64,000 nt of DNA from Bacteroidota bacterium (GCA_018266955.1 JAFDZI010000007.1:1-64000); one strand, 5' to 3'. Numbered from the stretch's first letter, positions 47,745 to 58,976 are shown. The notes: generated by a model from the sequence alone, not told the origin. Numbers and translations are program-made.

Positions 47745-48485
47745 TTAAAGCAACCAGTCGTATCCTTTTTCTTCTAGTTCCAATGCTAAGGTTTTATCAC
47801 CTGTTTTAATGATTTTTCCATCCGCCAAAACATGTACAAAATCCGGTTGAATATAGTCTAATAATCTTTGGTAATGAGTGATGAGCAGTACTGCGTTTCC
47901 TTCGTTTTTAAAAGAATTCACGCCATCTGCAACAATTCTTAGCGCATCGATATCCAATCCAGAGTCGGTTTCGTCCAAAATAGCCAATTTAGGATCCAAC
48001 ATCAACATTTGGAAAATTTCATTTCTTTTTTTCTCACCTCCGGAGAAACCTTCATTAAGGGATCTTCCCAAGAAGTCTTTTTTAATTCCTAATTTTTCTG
48101 AATGCTTTCTCACCAAAGCCAGCATATCTTTGGCAGGCAATTCAGTTTCGCCTTTGGCTTTACGGGTTTCGTTTATTGCTGCTTTGATAAAGTTGGTCAC
48201 CGTAACCCCTGGTATTTCTACAGGATATTGGAAAGAAAGGAAAATACCTTTGTGTGCTCTTTCTTCAGGTGCGTCTTCCACAATATCTCCATCTTCAAAA
48301 AGGATTTCTCCATCGGTTACTTCATAATCTTCCTTTCCTGCTATTACGGAAGAAAGGGTAGATTTCCCGGCACCATTGGGACCCATAATGGCGTGTACTT
48401 CACCAGGTTTTATTTCTAGGTTAATTCCTTTTAATATTTCTGCGCCATCTGCAATTTTGGCATGTAAATTATTTATCTTTAACAT
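47745..48485 (-). CDS. sufC: Fe-S assembly ATPase SufC
   Basis: A 246-residue ABC-type ATPase without a membrane partner. Walker A is GPNGAGKST (35-43), the signature loop is GFSGGEKKRNE and Walker B is PKLAILDETDSGLD. SufC dimerises on SufB and SufD and opens the scaffold to receive iron and sulfur. Spacing is 54 bp to sufD and 59 bp from sufB. Confidence 0.97.
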   Translation of the reverse strand: MLKINNLHAKIADGAEILKGINLEIKPGEVHAIMGPNGAGKSTLSSVIAGKEDYEVTDGEILFEDGDIVEDAPEERAHKGIFLSFQYPVEIPGVTVTNFIKAAINETRKAKGETELPAKDMLALVRKHSEKLGIKKDFLGRSLNEGFSGGEKKRNEIFQMLMLDPKLAILDETDSGLDIDALRIVADGVNSFKNEGNAVLLITHYQRLLDYIQPDFVHVLADGKIIKTGDKTLALELEEKGYDWLL

Positions 48486-48544
48486 ATTGACTTTTCTGTT
48501 TGAATTATAATTGAATGATGATTTCTCTATACAAAATGCATGGC

Positions 48545-49993
48545 TTAACCAACACTTCCTTCCAGAGAAATTTCTAAAAGTTTTTGCGCTTCTATGGCAA
48601 ACTCCATAGGGAGCTTGTTCAGAACCTCTTTACCAAAGCCGTTTACAATAAGTGCAATGGCTTTCTCTGTGTTGATTCCTCTTTGGTTGCAATAGAAAAT
48701 CTGATCTTCACCAATCTTAGAAGTAGTTGCTTCGTGTTCTAATTGTGCGGTTGGATCTTTTATTTCGATGTACGGAAAAGTATGCGCGCCGCAGTCATTC
48801 CCCATCAAGAGAGAATCGCACTGCGAGAAGTTTCTTGCACCTTTAGCCGAAGGCATTACCTTAACCAAACCACGGTATGAATTGTTGGATTTACCCGCAG
48901 AAATTCCTTTGGAAATAATGGTAGAACGGGTGTTTTTTCCGATATGAATCATTTTAGTTCCTGTATCGGCATATTGGTGGTTATTGGTGACTGCTATGGA
49001 ATAAAATTCGCCAATCGCATTATCCCCTTTTAGGATACACGAAGGATATTTCCATGTAACAGCTGAGCCAGTTTCTACCTGAGTCCAAGAGATTTTGGCA
49101 TTTTTCTCTGCTAATCCTCTTTTGGTTACAAAATTGAAAACTCCACCTTTACCTTCTGCGTCGCCAGGATACCAGTTTTGCACGGTAGAATATTTTATTT
49201 CGGCACCGTCCATGGCAATAAGTTCAACAACGGCAGCGTGCAATTGGTTTTCGTCTCGGGAAGGAGCGGTACAACCTTCCAGATAAGAGACATAAGAACC
49301 TTCATCGGCTACCAAAAGGGTTCTTTCAAACTGACCGGTTCCTTCTTTATTAATTCTAAAATATGTTGAAAGTTCCATGGGACACTTCACTCCTTTAGGA
49401 ATGTAACAGAAACTACCATCCGAAAACACCGCCGAATTGAGTGCTGCGTAAAAATTATCCCCTCTTGGGACAACTTTACCGATGTATTTTTTCACCAAGT
49501 CTGGGTATTCTTTAATTGCTTCGGACATGGAGCAAAAGATAATTCCTTTTTCTTTTAGTGTTTCTTGAAAAGTGGTTTTCACGGAAACCGAGTCAATAAC
49601 CAAATCAACGGCTACATTGGTCAGTCGCTTTTGTTCTTCGATATTAATACCAAGTTTTTCAAAAGTTTTTAACAATTCGGGATCCACCTCGTCCAAACTA
49701 TTGAGTTGAGGTTTCTTTTTAGGAGCCGCATAATATTTTATTGCCTGAAAATCTGGTTTTTCATACTTCACATTGGCCCAGTTTGGTTCTGTCATTTTCT
49801 CCCATATTCTGAAAGATTCCAGCCTCCACTCGGTCATCCATTCCGGTTCTTCCTTTTTTTGAGAAATCATGCGTACGATGTCTTCATTAAGTCCAGTTGG
49901 GAAATCTTCGTACTCGATATCGGTATAGAAGCCTGCTTCGTATTGTTTATTTTCCAGATCGACCCTTAAGTCGTCTTCTGTGTATTTAGCCAT
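48545..49993 (-). CDS. sufB: Fe-S assembly scaffold subunit SufB
   Basis: A 482-residue SufB, the larger scaffold subunit. Recognisable parts are [37 protein letters not shown] and the C-terminal [21 protein letters not shown] with the family Cys and His. It carries the N-terminal helical extension of about 80 residues typical of Bacteroidota. The gene starts 90 bp downstream of the iscA-like gene stop. Confidence 0.97.
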
Positions 49994-50083
49994 AAATTAA
50001 TAATGAAATTAAAATTTAATTGGTGTAAAAATGAAATTTGCAATTTTATTTCATATAAAAGGGTGTTAAGACCCAAGTATTTT

Positions 50084-50413
50084 TTATAAAGAAAAACTTT
50101 CGCCACAACCACAAGTTCTTGAAGCATTGGGGTTTTGGAAAATAAAACCTTTCCCGTTAAGTCCTCCGGAGAATTCCAAAATAGTCCCAGCGAGATAGAG
50201 TATAGATTTTTTATCAACCAAAATTTTTACTCCATTGTCTTCAAACAATTGGTCGGCATCGGTTTTTTCTTTGTCGAATTTCAGTACATATTCCAATCCG
50301 CTGCAACCTCCACTCTTTACACCCACACGGATATAATCTTGTTGAGGGTCAAATCCATCTTCGGTCATTAGTTGTACCGCTTTTATTTTTGCAGTATCAG
50401 AAACTTTTATCAT
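50084..50413 (-). CDS. A-type Fe-S carrier (SufA/IscA/ErpA family)
   Basis: A 109-residue HesB/IscA-type carrier that receives clusters from SufBCD and delivers them to apoproteins. The three conserved cysteines are Cys37 (SGGCSGLEYVL), Cys101 and Cys103 (RTCGCGESFSL). It is the first gene of the operon iscA-like, sufB, sufC, sufD. A -7 element TATTTTTG is at 50445-50452 and a 17-bp palindrome lies near the predicted start. Confidence 0.94.
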   Translation of the reverse strand: MIKVSDTAKIKAVQLMTEDGFDPQQDYIRVGVKSGGCSGLEYVLKFDKEKTDADQLFEDNGVKILVDKKSILYLAGTILEFSGGLNGKGFIFQNPNASRTCGCGESFSL

Positions 50414-53394: not shown

Positions 53395-53712
53395 GAACCA
53401 ATTCTGTCGTACCTGCAAAAGTACAAATAAGTATGCAATTAGATAGATAAAATTAATAAATAATCTATTACAAGCATTTTATTTTTACACCTTTTATCCA
53501 TAATACATTAAAATTTAACTAAAAAAATTCATCATAAGCATCGTTTGAACATCCTTAAGCTCCTCATTAACAATTAACTTAATCAATGTCTTTCAAAAAA
53601 AATCAAAAAATATTAAGTAAAAAAGTACTTCAATACTTTTATATAGAAATTTTGTTTATCTTTGCAAAGTAAAAATGAATCAGCAATCGTTTAACTCAAA
53701 AAAAATCATCTT
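53395..53712. promoter_or_regulatory. Divergent control region, hydrolase (minus) and ric (plus)
   Basis: A 318-bp gene-free stretch, AT-rich. Minus side: -7 element TACTTTTG at 53416-53423 for the hydrolase. Plus side: -7 element TATCTTTG at 53657-53664 for the ric gene, and a 20-bp inverted repeat AAAAGTA-CTTCAA-TACTTTT (53621-53640) that overlaps the expected -33 region, so a candidate operator. The middle (about 53440-53600) shows no clear structure. Confidence 0.6.
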
Positions 53713-55185
53713 ATGCAAACAACAGACGAAATCATCATTCATGTTCAAGAAATAGAACCTAGACTAAGACATCAAACCATATTTGAAACTTTTAACAATC
53801 TACAAGATGGCGAAAGTTTAATTATCCATAACAACCACGACCCAAAACCTGTTTACTACCAAATGTTGGATATGTGGGGAGAAATTTTCACATGGGAATA
53901 CCTTCAACAAGGTCCTGAATGGTGGGACATTCGTGTAACAAAAAATCTAAACAATCTGGCTAGTTCTGAATTGGAAGCAGTACTAATTAATGTTCCTGCC
54001 ATAGAACCTAGCTTAAAACATGCAACTATTTTCCAGGTATTTGATGAACTCCAACCGGGGGAATCACTAATTATTCATAACGACCACGACCCTAAACCGG
54101 TGTACTTTCAATTATTGGGCGAGAGAGGAGACATCTTTACCTGGGAATATTTAGAACAAGGTCCAGAAAACTGGGATGTATTGGTTACAAAAAATAAAGT
54201 TATGAAAAATGATAAACCATTGGTTTCCGCAAAAGTAAAAGAAGGTGAAAAAATAGTGAATGTACCTTCTTTAGAGCCAAGACTAAAACATCCTACTATT
54301 TTCAACACTTTTGATGAATTAAAACCTGGGGAGTCTTTCATTATACATAACGACCATGATCCAAAACCGGTCTATTACCAATTGCTGGGCGAAAGAGGAG
54401 ACATCTTCACTTGGGAATATCTGGAGCAAGGACCTCAATTCTGGGATATTCGAGTGACTCTTAGAGGTGAGGAACAACAAGAAACCATAGGACAAATTGC
54501 AGCAAAAGACCTCAGAAAAGCAGAGGTATTCAAAAAATATGGCATCGACTTTTGTTGTGGTGGTAAAAAAACCGTTCGAGAAGTTTGTGCCGAAAAAGGA
54601 ATTGATGCAGAAATGGTAGAAAGAGAATTAAATCAGCCCATTGCTAATGTTACCAATTCTAATATGAACTTTACGGAGTGGAATATCGATTTCTTGGCCG
54701 ACTATGTAGTGAATACCCATCATAATTTTGTGAGAAAATATTTACCAGAAATCACTGCCTATGCGAAAAAGGTAGCACAAGTACATGGTGGACAGCATCC
54801 TGAACTATACGACATAAACACCTTGGTTGAGAATGTAAATGCAGAACTTACAGAACACATGGTGGACGAAGAGAACATCCTTTTCCCAAGAGTAAAAGAA
54901 ATTGTTAATGCGCAAAAAAACAAACTCCCATACCCAATGGAAGGTAGAGAAGCACTGGAAACACTAATCGACGAAACCGAAAAAGAACACGACAGTGTAG
55001 GCAGAGCAATGGAAGAAATAAGAAGACTAAGCAACAATTATGCAATCCCTAGCGATGCTTGTGCTAGTTACACCTTATTGTTCAAAATGTTAGAAGAATT
55101 TGAAAGCGATTTGTTTATTCACATCCATTTGGAAAATAACATTATGTTTCCTAAAGCAATAGAACTAGAAAAAACATTATTCTAA
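53713..55185 (+). CDS. Triple-DUF2249 / RIC (ScdA) iron-sulfur repair fusion
   Basis: A 490-residue cytoplasmic fusion. Three tandem DUF2249 domains (about 7-77, 91-160, 181-250) share the core HNxHDPKPVY and FTWEYL(E/Q)QGP; repeats 2 and 3 are nearest each other. Then comes a ScdA_N/DUF542 domain (258-308; KYGIDFCCGGKKTV, Cys281-Cys282) and a hemerythrin-like di-iron domain (about 325-482; His336/337, HMVDEENILFP, EKEHDS, HIHLENNIMFP). RIC/YtfE proteins repair Fe-S clusters damaged by nitric oxide or peroxide. DUF2249 belongs to a TusA-like fold group whose role is unsettled. Own promoter with candidate operator; a terminator follows. Confidence 0.9.
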   Translation: MQTTDEIIIHVQEIEPRLRHQTIFETFNNLQDGESLIIHNNHDPKPVYYQMLDMWGEIFTWEYLQQGPEWWDIRVTKNLNNLASSELEAVLINVPAIEPSLKHATIFQVFDELQPGESLIIHNDHDPKPVYFQLLGERGDIFTWEYLEQGPENWDVLVTKNKVMKNDKPLVSAKVKEGEKIVNVPSLEPRLKHPTIFNTFDELKPGESFIIHNDHDPKPVYYQLLGERGDIFTWEYLEQGPQFWDIRVTLRGEEQQETIGQIAAKDLRKAEVFKKYGIDFCCGGKKTVREVCAEKGIDAEMVERELNQPIANVTNSNMNFTEWNIDFLADYVVNTHHNFVRKYLPEITAYAKKVAQVHGGQHPELYDINTLVENVNAELTEHMVDEENILFPRVKEIVNAQKNKLPYPMEGREALETLIDETEKEHDSVGRAMEEIRRLSNNYAIPSDACASYTLLFKMLEEFESDLFIHIHLENNIMFPKAIELEKTLF

Positions 55186-55200
55186 ATTTTATTTACTTTT

Positions 55201-55232
55201 CATCCTGCATTTTTTTGTGCAGGATGATTTTT
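55201..55232 (+). terminator. Terminator after the ric fusion gene
   Basis: CATCCTGCA / TGCAGGATG, 9-bp arms, T-rich loop, then ATTTTT. It separates ric from the next operon or partly attenuates into it. Confidence 0.85.
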
Positions 55233-55296: not shown

Positions 55297-56124
55297 ATGC
55301 TCATCAACGAACAAACCAAAATAGCCGCATTACTTAAGCATCATCCAGATGCTCTAGAAACCATTATTACCATTAGTCCAGATTTTAAAAAACTAAGAAA
55401 TCCTATTTTAAGAAAATTAATGGCCGGAAGAACCAGTATTGCTATGGCTTCTAAAATTGGGGGTTGCCAACCTGAAGATTTTTTTAAAGCATTGGCTCCT
55501 TTAGGTTTTGAAGTAGATGTAGATAGAACCATAGAACCCGAAGAAAATACAGACCGAAAACCATTACCCGATATATTGAAAAATATTTCCAAAGAAAAAA
55601 TTGTAGTGTTTGATGTTCGGGACATGCTTGCAAGCGGTAGTGACCCATTAAAATTAATTCAACAAAAAATAAAAGAACTTCAAAAAGACGAAATTTTGCA
55701 AATCATCAATACCTTCGAGCCTGTACCTTTAATTAAATTATTGGAGAAACAAGGTTTTCAATCTTTTGTTGATGTTGTATCGGACAATCAAATCGATACT
55801 TATTTTTACTCTTCTGGAAAAGAAATTAACACGGCTTTTTCAAATTCTGACACCAATGAAGAAAGCAGTGACTGGGGAATTCTGTTGAATAAATACAAAA
55901 ATAATACAGTGGAAATTGATGTACGACATCTAGAAATGCCGATGCCCATGATGACCATTTTGGAAAATCTAGAAACACTACCCGTGGGGAAGGCTTTATT
56001 TGTACACCACAAAAGAATACCGGTTTTCTTATTAACCGAGTTAAAAGAACGAAACTTCGACTACCGAATTAAAGAAATTCAGGAAGGAGAAGTCTATTTA
56101 CTGATTTTTCATCAAAACGACTAA
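55297..56124 (+). CDS. DUF1858-DUF2249-DUF2249 protein
   Basis: A 275-residue protein. The N-terminal DUF1858 domain (about 5-65: IAALLKHHPDALETIITISP, ASKIGGCQPEDFF) is a small helical domain often joined to ScdA or hemerythrin proteins. Two DUF2249 domains follow: 103-170 (VVFDVRDMLASGSDP, EILQIINTFEPVPLIKLLE) and 206-272 (EIDVRHLEMPMPMMTILENL, GKALFVHHKRIPVFLLTEL). These are more like classic DUF2249 than the ones in the RIC fusion. The ATG at 55297 follows AGGAC; a frame open to 55243 is longer but less likely. The next gene starts 2 bp after its stop. Confidence 0.8.
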   Translation: MLINEQTKIAALLKHHPDALETIITISPDFKKLRNPILRKLMAGRTSIAMASKIGGCQPEDFFKALAPLGFEVDVDRTIEPEENTDRKPLPDILKNISKEKIVVFDVRDMLASGSDPLKLIQQKIKELQKDEILQIINTFEPVPLIKLLEKQGFQSFVDVVSDNQIDTYFYSSGKEINTAFSNSDTNEESSDWGILLNKYKNNTVEIDVRHLEMPMPMMTILENLETLPVGKALFVHHKRIPVFLLTELKERNFDYRIKEIQEGEVYLLIFHQND

Positions 56125-56126
56125 AT

Positions 56127-57407
56127 ATGTTTCCGGGAAGCACCACTGGACTACAACAGACTACTTCTTACAAAGTAGTGATTCCTTTTTATCTATATGC
56201 AGCCTTCACATTTTTGTTGGCCACCCTTTTTCTATTCCTACATTCGGATTTGGGATTAGAACATTATTTTACACCCAACACATTATCCTTAACACACATG
56301 ATGGCATTAGGTTGGGGCACTATGATTATTTTAGGAGCCTCGCACCAACTGCTACCCGTACTTATAGAAGGAAAATTATTTAGTACCAAACTGGCTTATG
56401 GAAGCTTTGCAGGCACAGCTATTGGAATTCCATTATTAATTTATAGTTTTTACGAATTTAACTTCGGGTGGCTGGCTCAAATAGGGGCAATTGCCATAAA
56501 CATAGGTTTATTTCTTTTCCTTTTCAATGTATTATTTAGTGTTTTACAAAACAAGAAAGCCAATATCCACGCATGGTTTATGTCCACAGCTACCCTTTGG
56601 CTGCTAAGCACTACGGTATTTGGAATGCTCTTGGTTTTTAATTTTCACTATCCCATTTTCCCATCAGAATCCGTTCAGTACTTGTCCATTCACGCACATA
56701 TGGGCATTGTTGGTTGGTTTCTAATGATGGTTTTAGGCGTTGGAAGCCGACTTATCCCCATGTTTTTAATTTCAAAATACCAAAGCAAACAGACATTGTG
56801 GTGGGTATATATTTTAACAAATTTATGCTTGATATCTTTTATCCTGATAAAACTCTATTTCGGTGCAACGGCGTTATTCATCCCAATTGTTTTCGTATTA
56901 ATAGCCATCTTCTTATTTGGTCGGTATTGCTATAAGGCACATCAAGTTCGCATCAGAAAAAATGTAGATTTGCAAATGAAAACTTCATTAATTTCCGTTG
57001 TGCAAATGTTTGTTCCCATTCTTATTATTCTATTTTTAATCATGTTATCCTCCACTAAGCATCAAGCTAAATTAGGGGTCCTTTACGGATTTTGCATTTT
57101 CTTCGGTTGGATTACCGCTATAATTATGGGGATGACTTTCAAAACACTGCCTTTTATTATTTGGAATAAAGCCTACCATAAAAAAGCCCATGAAGGGAAA
57201 ACCCCTCCACCCAAAGATTTATTTAGTGATTCTTTATATTACACCTCTTTGGTTTCTTATATCACAGGATTCATCACTTATGCTTTAGGAATTATATTCA
57301 GTAATGATCTTGCAACAAAGGGAGGAGCCGCACTATTGGTGCTGTCGGCAACCTTCTATACAATAAATGTAATGATTGTATTTTTACATAAACCACAAAA
57401 AAAATGA
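56127..57407 (+). CDS. Multi-pass membrane protein, haem-copper oxidase subunit I-like
   Basis: A 426-residue protein with about 12 membrane segments. It holds two similar histidine motifs: LTHMMALGWGTMIILGASHQ (His57, His73) and SIHAHMGIVGWFLMM (His189, His191), each ending in a Gly-rich turn and Leu-(Leu/Ile)-Pro. The internal similarity points to an old duplication. The pattern recalls haem-copper oxidase/NorB subunit I and NnrS, but the canonical HPEVY and HH copper motifs are absent. A role in NO or haem-related redox chemistry fits the locus; it is inference. Gene starts 2 bp after the DUF2249 gene and overlaps the next by 4 bp. Confidence 0.6.
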   Translation: MFPGSTTGLQQTTSYKVVIPFYLYAAFTFLLATLFLFLHSDLGLEHYFTPNTLSLTHMMALGWGTMIILGASHQLLPVLIEGKLFSTKLAYGSFAGTAIGIPLLIYSFYEFNFGWLAQIGAIAINIGLFLFLFNVLFSVLQNKKANIHAWFMSTATLWLLSTTVFGMLLVFNFHYPIFPSESVQYLSIHAHMGIVGWFLMMVLGVGSRLIPMFLISKYQSKQTLWWVYILTNLCLISFILIKLYFGATALFIPIVFVLIAIFLFGRYCYKAHQVRIRKNVDLQMKTSLISVVQMFVPILIILFLIMLSSTKHQAKLGVLYGFCIFFGWITAIIMGMTFKTLPFIIWNKAYHKKAHEGKTPPPKDLFSDSLYYTSLVSYITGFITYALGIIFSNDLATKGGAALLVLSATFYTINVMIVFLHKPQKK

Positions 57408-57727
57408 CAGTAGAAACAAACGACGCAAGCAAATGCGAATTAGCACTCAAAGGATTATATTTTGTTGACGATCCCGAAATTGGACTTAATGTGGTCGATT
57501 TAGGACTGATCTATCAAATAGAATTTATTGAAGAAGAAAAAAAATTGAATACCCTGATGACACTTACCTCACAATTTTGCCCCATGGGCGATAGCATTGT
57601 AAGTAATGTTACCGACTCTTTACAATCGGCGTTCCCAGAGTGGAGTATTCAAGTAGATTTAACTTTCGAGCCTGCTTGGGATTCTTCAAAAATATCCCCA
57701 GAAGGTCAAGAATTTTTAGGATATTAA
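57404..57727 (+). CDS. Second MIP18/SufT-like Fe-S assembly factor (DUF59)
   Basis: A 107-residue DUF59 protein paralogous to the one at 8675-9004. It has the core FVDDPEIGLNVVDLGLIYQI (about 20-39), Cys59 in LTSQFCPMGD and DLTFEPAWDSS near the end. Its position between the membrane protein and the Rrf2 gene (4-bp overlap, 1-bp gap) makes it a pathway-specific maturation factor in my reading. It may serve the RIC/DUF2249 system under stress while the other serves housekeeping. Confidence 0.88.
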   Translation: MTVETNDASKCELALKGLYFVDDPEIGLNVVDLGLIYQIEFIEEEKKLNTLMTLTSQFCPMGDSIVSNVTDSLQSAFPEWSIQVDLTFEPAWDSSKISPEGQEFLGY

Positions 57728-57728
57728 C

Positions 57729-58160
57729 ATGTTGAGTTTAACTTGCAAAACAGCCATAAAAGCGGTAATCTATCTTTCTGGAAAAAGTGCAGAAGGCGAA
57801 AAAACTGGCATTAAAGAAGTGGCTGAACAAATAAATGCCTCAGAACATACCGTTGGGAAAACTTTACAAAACCTGGTGAAACATAAAATCATCAACAGTG
57901 TAAAAGGTCCCAGTGGCGGTTTTTTCCTAACCGAAGCACAAAGAGAACAACCCATATACAATGTGGTTGAAACGATAGAAGGCAAAACCATTTTCAAAGA
58001 ATGCGGACTTGGTCTAAGCAAATGTTCAGAAACCCATCCTTGCCCCATTCACAACGACTATAAAGTAGCAAGAGCATTGGTGGAAAAAATATTTAAAGAA
58101 AAAAGAATTCTAGATCTTTGCGATCCCGTTACTCATGGCTTGGCATTTCTAATGGATTAG
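57729..58160 (+). CDS. Rrf2 family regulator, NsrR/IscR type
   Basis: A 143-residue winged-helix regulator. The recognition region is IKEVAEQINASEHTVGKTLQ with the wing GPSGGFFL. Three cysteines in the family's cluster-binding position, Cys92, Cys99 and Cys105 (KECGLGLSKCSETHPC), make an Fe-S-sensing function likely: NsrR proteins sense nitric oxide, IscR proteins cluster status. Spacing here is C-x6-C-x5-C. It is the fourth gene of the DUF2249 operon, so it probably autoregulates and controls the ric promoter. The direct target sites are not established. Confidence 0.88.
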   Translation: MLSLTCKTAIKAVIYLSGKSAEGEKTGIKEVAEQINASEHTVGKTLQNLVKHKIINSVKGPSGGFFLTEAQREQPIYNVVETIEGKTIFKECGLGLSKCSETHPCPIHNDYKVARALVEKIFKEKRILDLCDPVTHGLAFLMD

Positions 58161-58205: not shown

Positions 58206-58517
58206 ATGGAAACCAACTACGGAACATTATCAGAAACCATCAATGCACTTCGAAAAGAAGGCTACACCTTGGATTTTAACCTAAAAGAAGATTGTATGGT
58301 TTGTCATAAAAATGAACATCAACTATTGGCAGATGAGTTCGAAATTGATGCCGTTTTTCGTTTTGATGGGAATACAGATCCAGATGACGAAGCCATTGTG
58401 TATGCAATTTCTTCTACCAAGCATCAAGCCAAAGGTATTTTGGTGAACGGATATGGTGTGTATAATGATGATTTTTCATCTGCATTAATTGAGAAACTCA
58501 GAAATCACGGACTTTAA
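58206..58517 (+). CDS. Small conserved protein with CxxC (Bacteroidota)
   Basis: A 103-residue protein I recall from Bacteroidota under the label phosphoribosylpyrophosphate synthetase, but it shows none of the PRPP-synthetase motifs and is far too short. The sequence opens YGTLSETINALRKEGYTLDF, has Cys30 and Cys33 in KEDCMVCHKNE, then acidic-rich DEFEIDAVFRFDGNTDPDDE. It may bind a metal. It lies 45 bp after the Rrf2 gene and 10 bp before the cupin gene. Confidence 0.7.
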   Translation: METNYGTLSETINALRKEGYTLDFNLKEDCMVCHKNEHQLLADEFEIDAVFRFDGNTDPDDEAIVYAISSTKHQAKGILVNGYGVYNDDFSSALIEKLRNHGL

Positions 58518-58527
58518 AAAAGAAAAT

Positions 58528-58923
58528 ATGGAAACAAAATCCAATGATGCAACTCCTTTAAGACCTGATGGACATCGGATATTGAATGACCATTTGGTGG
58601 AGATGAATTTACCCCAATTCATCGCACAAATAAAATCCGAAAAAACTTGGCAAGAAGGAGAAAAAAATTCAATTACTATTTTCAAATCAGATTTAATGAA
58701 AATAGTCTTAATAGGATTGCATAAAAATGCTGAACTAAAAAAGCATACCGCACAAGCTCAAATTAGCGTACAAGTATTGGAGGGCGAAGTTCAATTTTCA
58801 ATCGAGGAAAAGCAACTTTTACTAACCAAAGGGCAAATGATAAGTTTGCAGCCCAACATCCCACATGCACTATATGCGGAAAAGGAGAGTTTTGTCTTGC
58901 TTACCTTAGCTTCCATTCAATAA
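58528..58923 (+). CDS. Cupin domain protein
   Basis: A 131-residue single-domain cupin. The barrel motifs are LKKHTAQAQISVQVLEGEVQF (with His at the first ligand position) and LLLTKGQMISLQPNIPHALYA (with the second His). These could bind a metal ion and a small ligand; substrates vary widely. I chose the ATG at 58528; the frame is open further upstream but overlaps the preceding gene. It is the last gene of the plus-strand run, before a terminator-like hairpin. Confidence 0.78.
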   Translation: METKSNDATPLRPDGHRILNDHLVEMNLPQFIAQIKSEKTWQEGEKNSITIFKSDLMKIVLIGLHKNAELKKHTAQAQISVQVLEGEVQFSIEEKQLLLTKGQMISLQPNIPHALYAEKESFVLLTLASIQ

Positions 58924-58945: not shown

Positions 58946-58976
58946 AAAAAAGGGTTGCCTTTGAGGGCAACCTTTT
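58946..58976. terminator. Terminator between cupin gene and rho
   Basis: GGTTGCC / GGCAACC core, 7 bp, flanked by A and T runs (58946-58976). It serves the converging cupin and rho genes. Confidence 0.75.

Follow-up and report, generated by a model that had tools for sequence, protein, structure and literature searches.

The window, i.e. the whole stretch of 64,000 nucleotides analysed here, carries seven genes and four regulatory features in the region of interest, listed below with positions counted from the first letter of the stretch. We use HCOL as a label for the oxidase-like membrane protein encoded at 56127-57407.

53618-53643, + strand: predicted Rrf2 operator TAAAAAAGTACTTCAATACTTTTATA, a 26-bp palindrome about 70 bp 5' of ric
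53657-53664, + strand: putative Bacteroidota-type -7 element TATCTTTG, read from the sequence
53713-55185, + strand: ric, a RIC fusion of three DUF2249 domains, ScdA_N and a hemerythrin-like di-iron domain
55200-55227, + strand: intrinsic terminator or attenuator hairpin in the ric-drpB gap (-18.2 kcal/mol, z -7.2)
55297-56124, + strand: drpB-like gene, DUF1858 plus two degenerate DUF2249 domains (TusA-like fold), the architecture of Thermus DrpB
56127-57407, + strand: HCOL gene, a 12-TM haem-copper-oxidase homologue with invariant His57 and His189, without conserved CuB/FeB ligands
57404-57727, + strand: DUF59 gene of SufT/MIP18 type, Cys59 100% conserved
57729-58160, + strand: rrf2, an Rrf2-family regulator with C92-x6-C99-x5-C105-x2-H108
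58206-58517, + strand: gene for a 103-aa protein, function unassigned, likely on the same transcript as rrf2
58528-58923, + strand: gene for a 131-aa cupin, likely the last on the transcript
58949-58976, + strand: intrinsic terminator 3' of the cupin gene

Gene content and protein features of the locus

The ORF calls place the drpB, HCOL, DUF59 and rrf2 genes end to end, with gaps of 2, -4 and 1 bp, as an earlier reading made from the sequence alone had described, and Pfam identifies in them DUF1858 with two DUF2249 domains, a weak COX1, FeS_assembly_P (DUF59) and Rrf2, respectively. The sequence-only reading had also counted five DUF2249 domains in the locus and noted an adjoining RIC fusion; a domain search locates three of these domains in RIC and two in DrpB, and the product of 53713-55185 passes the RIC model TIGR03652 (234.8 bits, cut-off 204.7). 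The ric gene is set apart from the four-gene block by the strong hairpin terminator at 55200-55227, which persists in two congeners, with base changes that preserve the stem; in one of these congeners the operator recurs 5' of drpB. A lipoprotein-like family of about 160 aa often occurs between ric and drpB (L009:4725-5201 and 14 further loci). Downstream, the transcript probably extends past rrf2 through the 103-aa and cupin genes to the terminator at 58949-58976; profile matches to the 103-aa protein lie near 26 of the 111 loci surveyed below. Genes reading as SUF Fe-S assembly (sufC, sufB and sufA) are present on the opposite strand at 47745-50413, about 3.3 kb before ric.

Proteins of the RIC family (TIGR03652) repair Fe-S centres. 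The window protein resembles RIC/YtfE/ScdA in its ScdA_N and hemerythrin di-iron domains, matches YtfE structures (E 4e-31) and retains His/Glu columns conserved at 94-98%, but differs in the fusion of three DUF2249 domains at its N-terminus. The DrpB-like protein (275 aa) contains DUF1858 followed by two DUF2249 domains, as does Thermus DrpB (273 aa), which is its best match among plasmid records (34% identity over 98%) and is encoded in a nitrate-respiration cluster. The DUF1858 part matches 2fi0 with a modest E-value, and the DUF2249 parts match TusA/SirA structures, likewise with modest E-values; their TusA-like fold aligns to the SirA-like 3hz7 with a TM-score of 0.76 (by target) and rmsd of 1.8 Å over 69 columns (Foldseek E 0.014); the rhizobial partner proteins pass the TusA cut-off. 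In the DUF2249 domains of DrpB, Cys stays below 50% in every column, so that the catalytic TusA cysteine is absent and sulfur transfer by DrpB itself is unlikely. The DUF59 protein belongs to the SufT/MIP18 family (FeS_assembly_P, 30.4 bits, cut-off 23.5), and its Cys59 is found in 100% of 101 sequences.

The structure model of HCOL (pLDDT 91.7) has the 12-TM fold of the catalytic subunits of haem-copper oxidases and NO reductases (NORs), and aligns over nearly its full length to cbb3 (9g6b_A; VIA-align Z 35.3, rmsd 2.9 Å, 395 residues) and to cNOR (Z 34.0). The earlier description of a haem-copper-like membrane protein is therefore upheld for the fold, but not for the conserved catalytic ligands: in the alignment, HCOL does not have the six ligand histidines of a catalytic subunit, and neither the CuB/FeB triad nor the high-spin haem ligand is seen. 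His57 (TM2) and His189 (TM6) are the only histidines invariant across Bacteroidota, Thermus, Aliarcobacter and rhizobia (19-25% identity), alongside R275 and K339, whereas His191 is conserved in Bacteroidota and not in the other phyla. TM7-TM8 and TM10 contain no further His column above 30%, except position 351 (55%). The catalytic site seems to have been lost, and HCOL, having no visible CuB/FeB ligands, is probably not an NO reductase.

Searches of PDB sequences with the HCOL profile gave no match, and the NnrS models did not match HCOL, for which only COX1 and one stray match were returned. The oxidase fold and two conserved histidines place HCOL among the haem-copper oxidase homology (HCOH) proteins, the definition of which we take to be an oxidase fold, two conserved histidines and a single haem. 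Two histidines in oxidase homologues were reportedly taken by Pei et al. in 2014 to suggest one haem; HCOL is probably an oxidase-fold scaffold carrying one haem, as predicted from the two conserved histidines only. It shares with HCOH proteins, including NnrS, the 12 TM helices, the fold, the two histidines and a link to DUF2249 and denitrification, but differs in its fixed partnership with DrpB and DUF59, and in the Rrf2 operator.

Distribution in Bacteroidota and in other phyla

We surveyed the HCOL gene in 40 relatives, 395 Bacteroidota genomes and named genome contigs. Across the resulting 111 Bacteroidota loci, of which the 80 named ones are the closest matches and therefore a biased set, a DrpB gene (DUF1858-DUF2249x2) lies immediately 5' of HCOL in 110, a DUF59 gene within 500 bp 3' of it in 101, and RIC/DUF2249 and Rrf2 genes within 6 kb in 99 and 97, respectively. 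The check across Bacteroidota suggested in the sequence-only reading thus finds the genes co-conserved, ric included, and the preservation of gene order across the 111 loci leads us to reject a chance neighbourhood. Among the loci are those of Chitinophaga oryziterrae JCM 16595 and Ferruginibacter paludis. The 395 sampled genomes include 26 carriers of the module, which were not selected by closeness. Pairwise protein distances co-vary, most strongly for HCOL with DrpB (r 0.93; HCOL with DUF59, 0.85; with Rrf2, 0.91), which likewise speaks against chance, and their co-variation across the five proteins fits a unit that is inherited or transferred jointly.

We additionally noted several diverged or partial copies. 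The whole unit occurs a second time, in diverged form (56-73% identity) and with an operator of its own, on a short contig of the same metagenome-assembled genome (MAG; L009, G000:C36:1-7174); the contig's GC content of 40%, against 34-37% elsewhere, suggests a contaminant contig rather than a paralogue. Stand-alone proteins with three DUF2249 domains occur outside the operon at L011:6452-7219 and L010:2284-3057 (contigs C1 and C25 of G000), and the GC content of C25 is also high (41%). In one Bacteroidota group (L059, L061, L065 and L067-L070), a 151-aa protein matching the HCOL profile is encoded just 3' of the DUF59 gene, and looks like a single four-helix oxidase repeat, similar to Thermus L159:9798-10232. 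A copy with 45% identity (L144) lies in a bin named Candidatus Competibacteraceae (Gammaproteobacteria), reflecting either transfer or a mis-binned contig.

Outside Bacteroidota, where the comparison was made on plasmid records, we identified related arrangements in several lineages. Thermus plasmids have, like the window, an HCOL homologue and a DUF59 gene after drpB, in the order nar, DUF2249 (DrpA), DrpB, a 144-aa protein, protoglobin, HCOL and DUF59, with the 144-aa protein between DrpB and protoglobin matching one oxidase repeat. In Rhizobium etli and Ensifer the order is nor, hemN, DUF2249, HCOL, DUF2249, DUF59, NnrS and nirK, and the R. etli DUF2249 protein between HCOL and DUF59 has two domains. 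Mesorhizobium carries HCOL, DUF2249 and DUF1858 genes close to NnrS, NosR and nosZ, and Aliarcobacter a group of a DUF2249-like gene, HCOL and DUF59. Neither Rrf2 nor RIC lies beside the rhizobial copies or in the Thermus stretch read, indicating that the core is able to work without them. In T. thermophilus HB8 the module has decayed to an HCOL fragment and a DUF59 gene, TTHB138, the structure of which has been solved (PDB 2cu6, 3cq1-3). The window DUF59 protein shares its family and conserved cysteine with SufT/MIP18 and TTHB138, but is unlike TTHB138 in belonging to an intact, Rrf2-linked operon, outside a suf operon. A weak haloarchaeal match (L167) has an oxidase-type subunit I and a multicopper oxidase nearby, but no DUF59 or DUF2249 neighbours at that locus.

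Rrf2 regulator and predicted operator

The window regulator matches the Rrf2 domain (PF02082, 77.2 bits). Its C92, C99, C105 and H108 are 98-100% conserved, with the C-x6-C-x5-C-x2-H spacing found in 95 of 97 Rrf2 sequences. A Cys/His ligand set of this kind is known from IscR, and the retention of this C-C-C-H set, typical of Fe-S sensors, agrees with the sequence-only reading of an Fe-S-type regulator. The subfamily models give scores far below their cut-offs for IscR (40.7 of 207.6 bits), NsrR (32.8 of 182) and all other NCBIfam subfamilies, and a PDB match of the window protein did not usefully cover the cysteines.

In the operon upstream regions, a 26-bp palindrome, AATAAAAGTATTTAAATACTTTTATT, emerged without prior expectation upstream of ric. 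Of 106 upstream regions, 62 contain it with no more than one mismatch over its 14 fixed positions, against 0.05 expected from shuffles. A matrix built on these 62 sites scores the window site at 29.0 bits, with nothing else in the 64 kb exceeding 14 bits. Applied to 1.76 Mb of loci, it yields 83 strong sites; 75 of these lie at ric, and several of the remainder at an alternative first gene of the operon. Of 84 loci with an in-operon Rrf2 gene, 66 carry the operator, but only 1 of the 22 loci without one does so (p 1e-10, for related loci that are not independent), and there a Crp/Fnr gene is often nearby instead. The operator thus tracks the in-operon rrf2 gene, tying the predicted site to the Rrf2 protein, and Rrf2 very probably controls its own gene block via this one conserved DNA site. 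The Bacteroidota -7 consensus is TAnnTTTG, and the predicted operator lies just before the TATCTTTG element, a placement that would be fit for repression.

Within the host genome, the regulon appears almost single-target. Matches with one mismatch are as frequent as in the control (41 and 42, respectively), so that only the ric site is secure; exact core matches on contigs C14 and C21 adjoin no recognised denitrification gene, and a matrix scan of the stretches with nirK, nosZ and the NOR-like genes of contig C12 returned no operator site. Upstream of norC, the host has a one-mismatch core (G000:C51:41370-41387) scoring below 14 bits on the matrix, and one congener a 20-bit operator-like site (L200:910-935), while no site was found upstream of norC in another congener or in a more distant genome. 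These sites are suggestive only of norC as a possible second target.

The system resembles NsrR/IscR-controlled NO and Fe-S operons in combining an Rrf2 protein with an Fe-S ligand set, a palindromic operator and a dnrN/ytfE (RIC) target (PMC1274295), but differs in its nearly single-target regulon and in subfamily scores far below the NsrR and IscR cut-offs. The operator also differs from the gATGyAT-N5-ATrCATc of NsrR (PMC1274295), although by visual similarity to that motif it may be NsrR-like.

Link to denitrification and possible functions

Denitrification genes in the host MAG cover NirK, a norCBQDE cluster, another NOR-like pair, and NosZ within a nos cluster; of these, we recognised the nor and accessory nos genes by reading ORFs rather than by family search. 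Among the 395 Bacteroidota genomes, NosZ is found in 24 of 26 module carriers versus 104 of 369 non-carriers (odds ratio 31, p 6e-11, an optimistic value given that the sampled genomes are mutually related). All 26 carriers have NosZ or NirK, and NirK alone is not enriched in them (6 of 26, p 0.4). The 104 genomes with NosZ and without the module indicate that it is not required for N2O reduction.

Several pieces of the module were known separately. The family COG4309, which we take to be DUF2249, was linked to NO reductase in 2005 (Rodionov 2005, PMC1274295), DUF2249 is linked to the haem-copper superfamily in passages of PMC11218638 and was induced in haloarchaeal denitrification (2024), and NnrR controls a DUF1858 gene in Bradyrhizobium. 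A limited search of open-licence papers found no description of the full unit or of its operator. The earlier statement that no such system had been described thus holds, within that search, for the whole with its operator, but not for DrpB, DUF2249 with NOR, or DUF2249 with haem-copper proteins; what is new is the 26-bp operator ahead of ric. For 20 years, DUF2249, DUF1858 and membrane proteins resembling oxidases have turned up near denitrification genes while their function stayed unsettled; now that they are seen to form a strictly conserved unit together with an Fe-S factor, joined in Bacteroidota by a dedicated regulator and operator, this function becomes directly testable. Bacteroidota contribute importantly to N2O reduction, and little is known about how they cope with NO.

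We favour, at a probability of roughly 0.55, reading the block as a self-regulating module for NO/Fe-S protection in denitrifying Bacteroidota, one that probably shields the cell from its own NO. Without NO, Rrf2 with its Fe-S cluster would occupy the 26-bp palindrome and block the ric promoter; NO made by NirK would damage the cluster and release the repressor, and RIC would then give iron back to damaged Fe-S centres. HCOL would hold one bis-histidine haem in the membrane and, rather than reducing NO, might serve as an NO- or redox-sensing or electron-passing anchor on which DrpB docks, and the DUF59 protein would supply Fe-S clusters, keeping respiratory Fe-S enzymes matured and functional under NO. 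Points against this reading are the rhizobial and Thermus copies with neither Rrf2 nor RIC alongside, the terminator that parts ric from drpB in the window, the unassigned Rrf2 subfamily and the 104 NosZ genomes without the module. The sequence-only reading of an NO/oxidative Fe-S damage response gains from the denitrification tie, the Fe-S-type Rrf2 and the shared operator, whereas nothing specific was found for its oxidative half. As a tentative extension, DrpB, HCOL and DUF59 might form an undescribed membrane complex, in which the haem of a site-less oxidase fold senses NO or delivers electrons, thereby controlling the supply of Fe-S or sulfur to respiratory enzymes; if true, a catalytically dead oxidase would be a cofactor-repair station for denitrifiers of several phyla.

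A signalling role, in which DrpB and HCOL detect nitrate or a different N-oxide at the membrane and adjust the transcription of denitrification genes, with DUF59 and RIC accessory, appears rather unlikely. In the passages searched of a 2018 study, Thermus DrpA/DrpB are treated as a bicistron and nitrate sensor, with no mention of the oxidase-like and DUF59 genes; DrpB, with which the window protein shares its domain order, is reported there as cytoplasmic and capable of membrane binding, and loss of both proteins renders nar expression nitrate-independent (PMC6282519). That loss of nitrate control keeps the sensor explanation alive, as does the sensor-like HCOL, with one possible haem site and no catalytic site. 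However, DrpB has no DNA-binding or phosphotransfer part, and a strict partnership with a DUF59 Fe-S factor would be odd for a pure sensor. In the same passages, the drpAB mutants also make nitrate reductase in normal amount but poorly active (PMC6282519), in effect a maturation defect, which fits maturation or repair.

A dedicated factor that matures a single metalloenzyme of denitrification, be it NosZ, NOR or Nar, for instance by delivering sulfur, an Fe-S cluster or haem, seems about equally doubtful. The frequency of NosZ in carriers (24 of 26), the position of the module beside nos-like genes in L054, L057, L060, L063, L066 and L069, the proposed importance of COG4309 for NO reductase (PMC1274295) and the TusA-like sulfur-carrier fold of DUF2249 are consistent with it, but 104 NosZ genomes do without the module, the DUF2249 domains of DrpB lack a conserved Cys, and the adjoining enzyme varies between nar (Thermus), nor/nirK (rhizobia) and nos (others). 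A role of HCOL itself as an NO reductase or oxidase is very improbable, in spite of its haem-copper fold and close alignment to cbb3 and cNOR: among its histidines invariance is limited to His57 and His189, so that it lacks the three CuB/FeB histidines as well as the high-spin haem ligand, and the host already has real NORs.

The second NorC/NorB-like pair of the host is located at L165:5839-7743 (G000:C12), and similar genes (cluster c24, whose only match, a weak one, is ccoN) are found again near the unit in L078, L119, L124, L126, L145 and L147.
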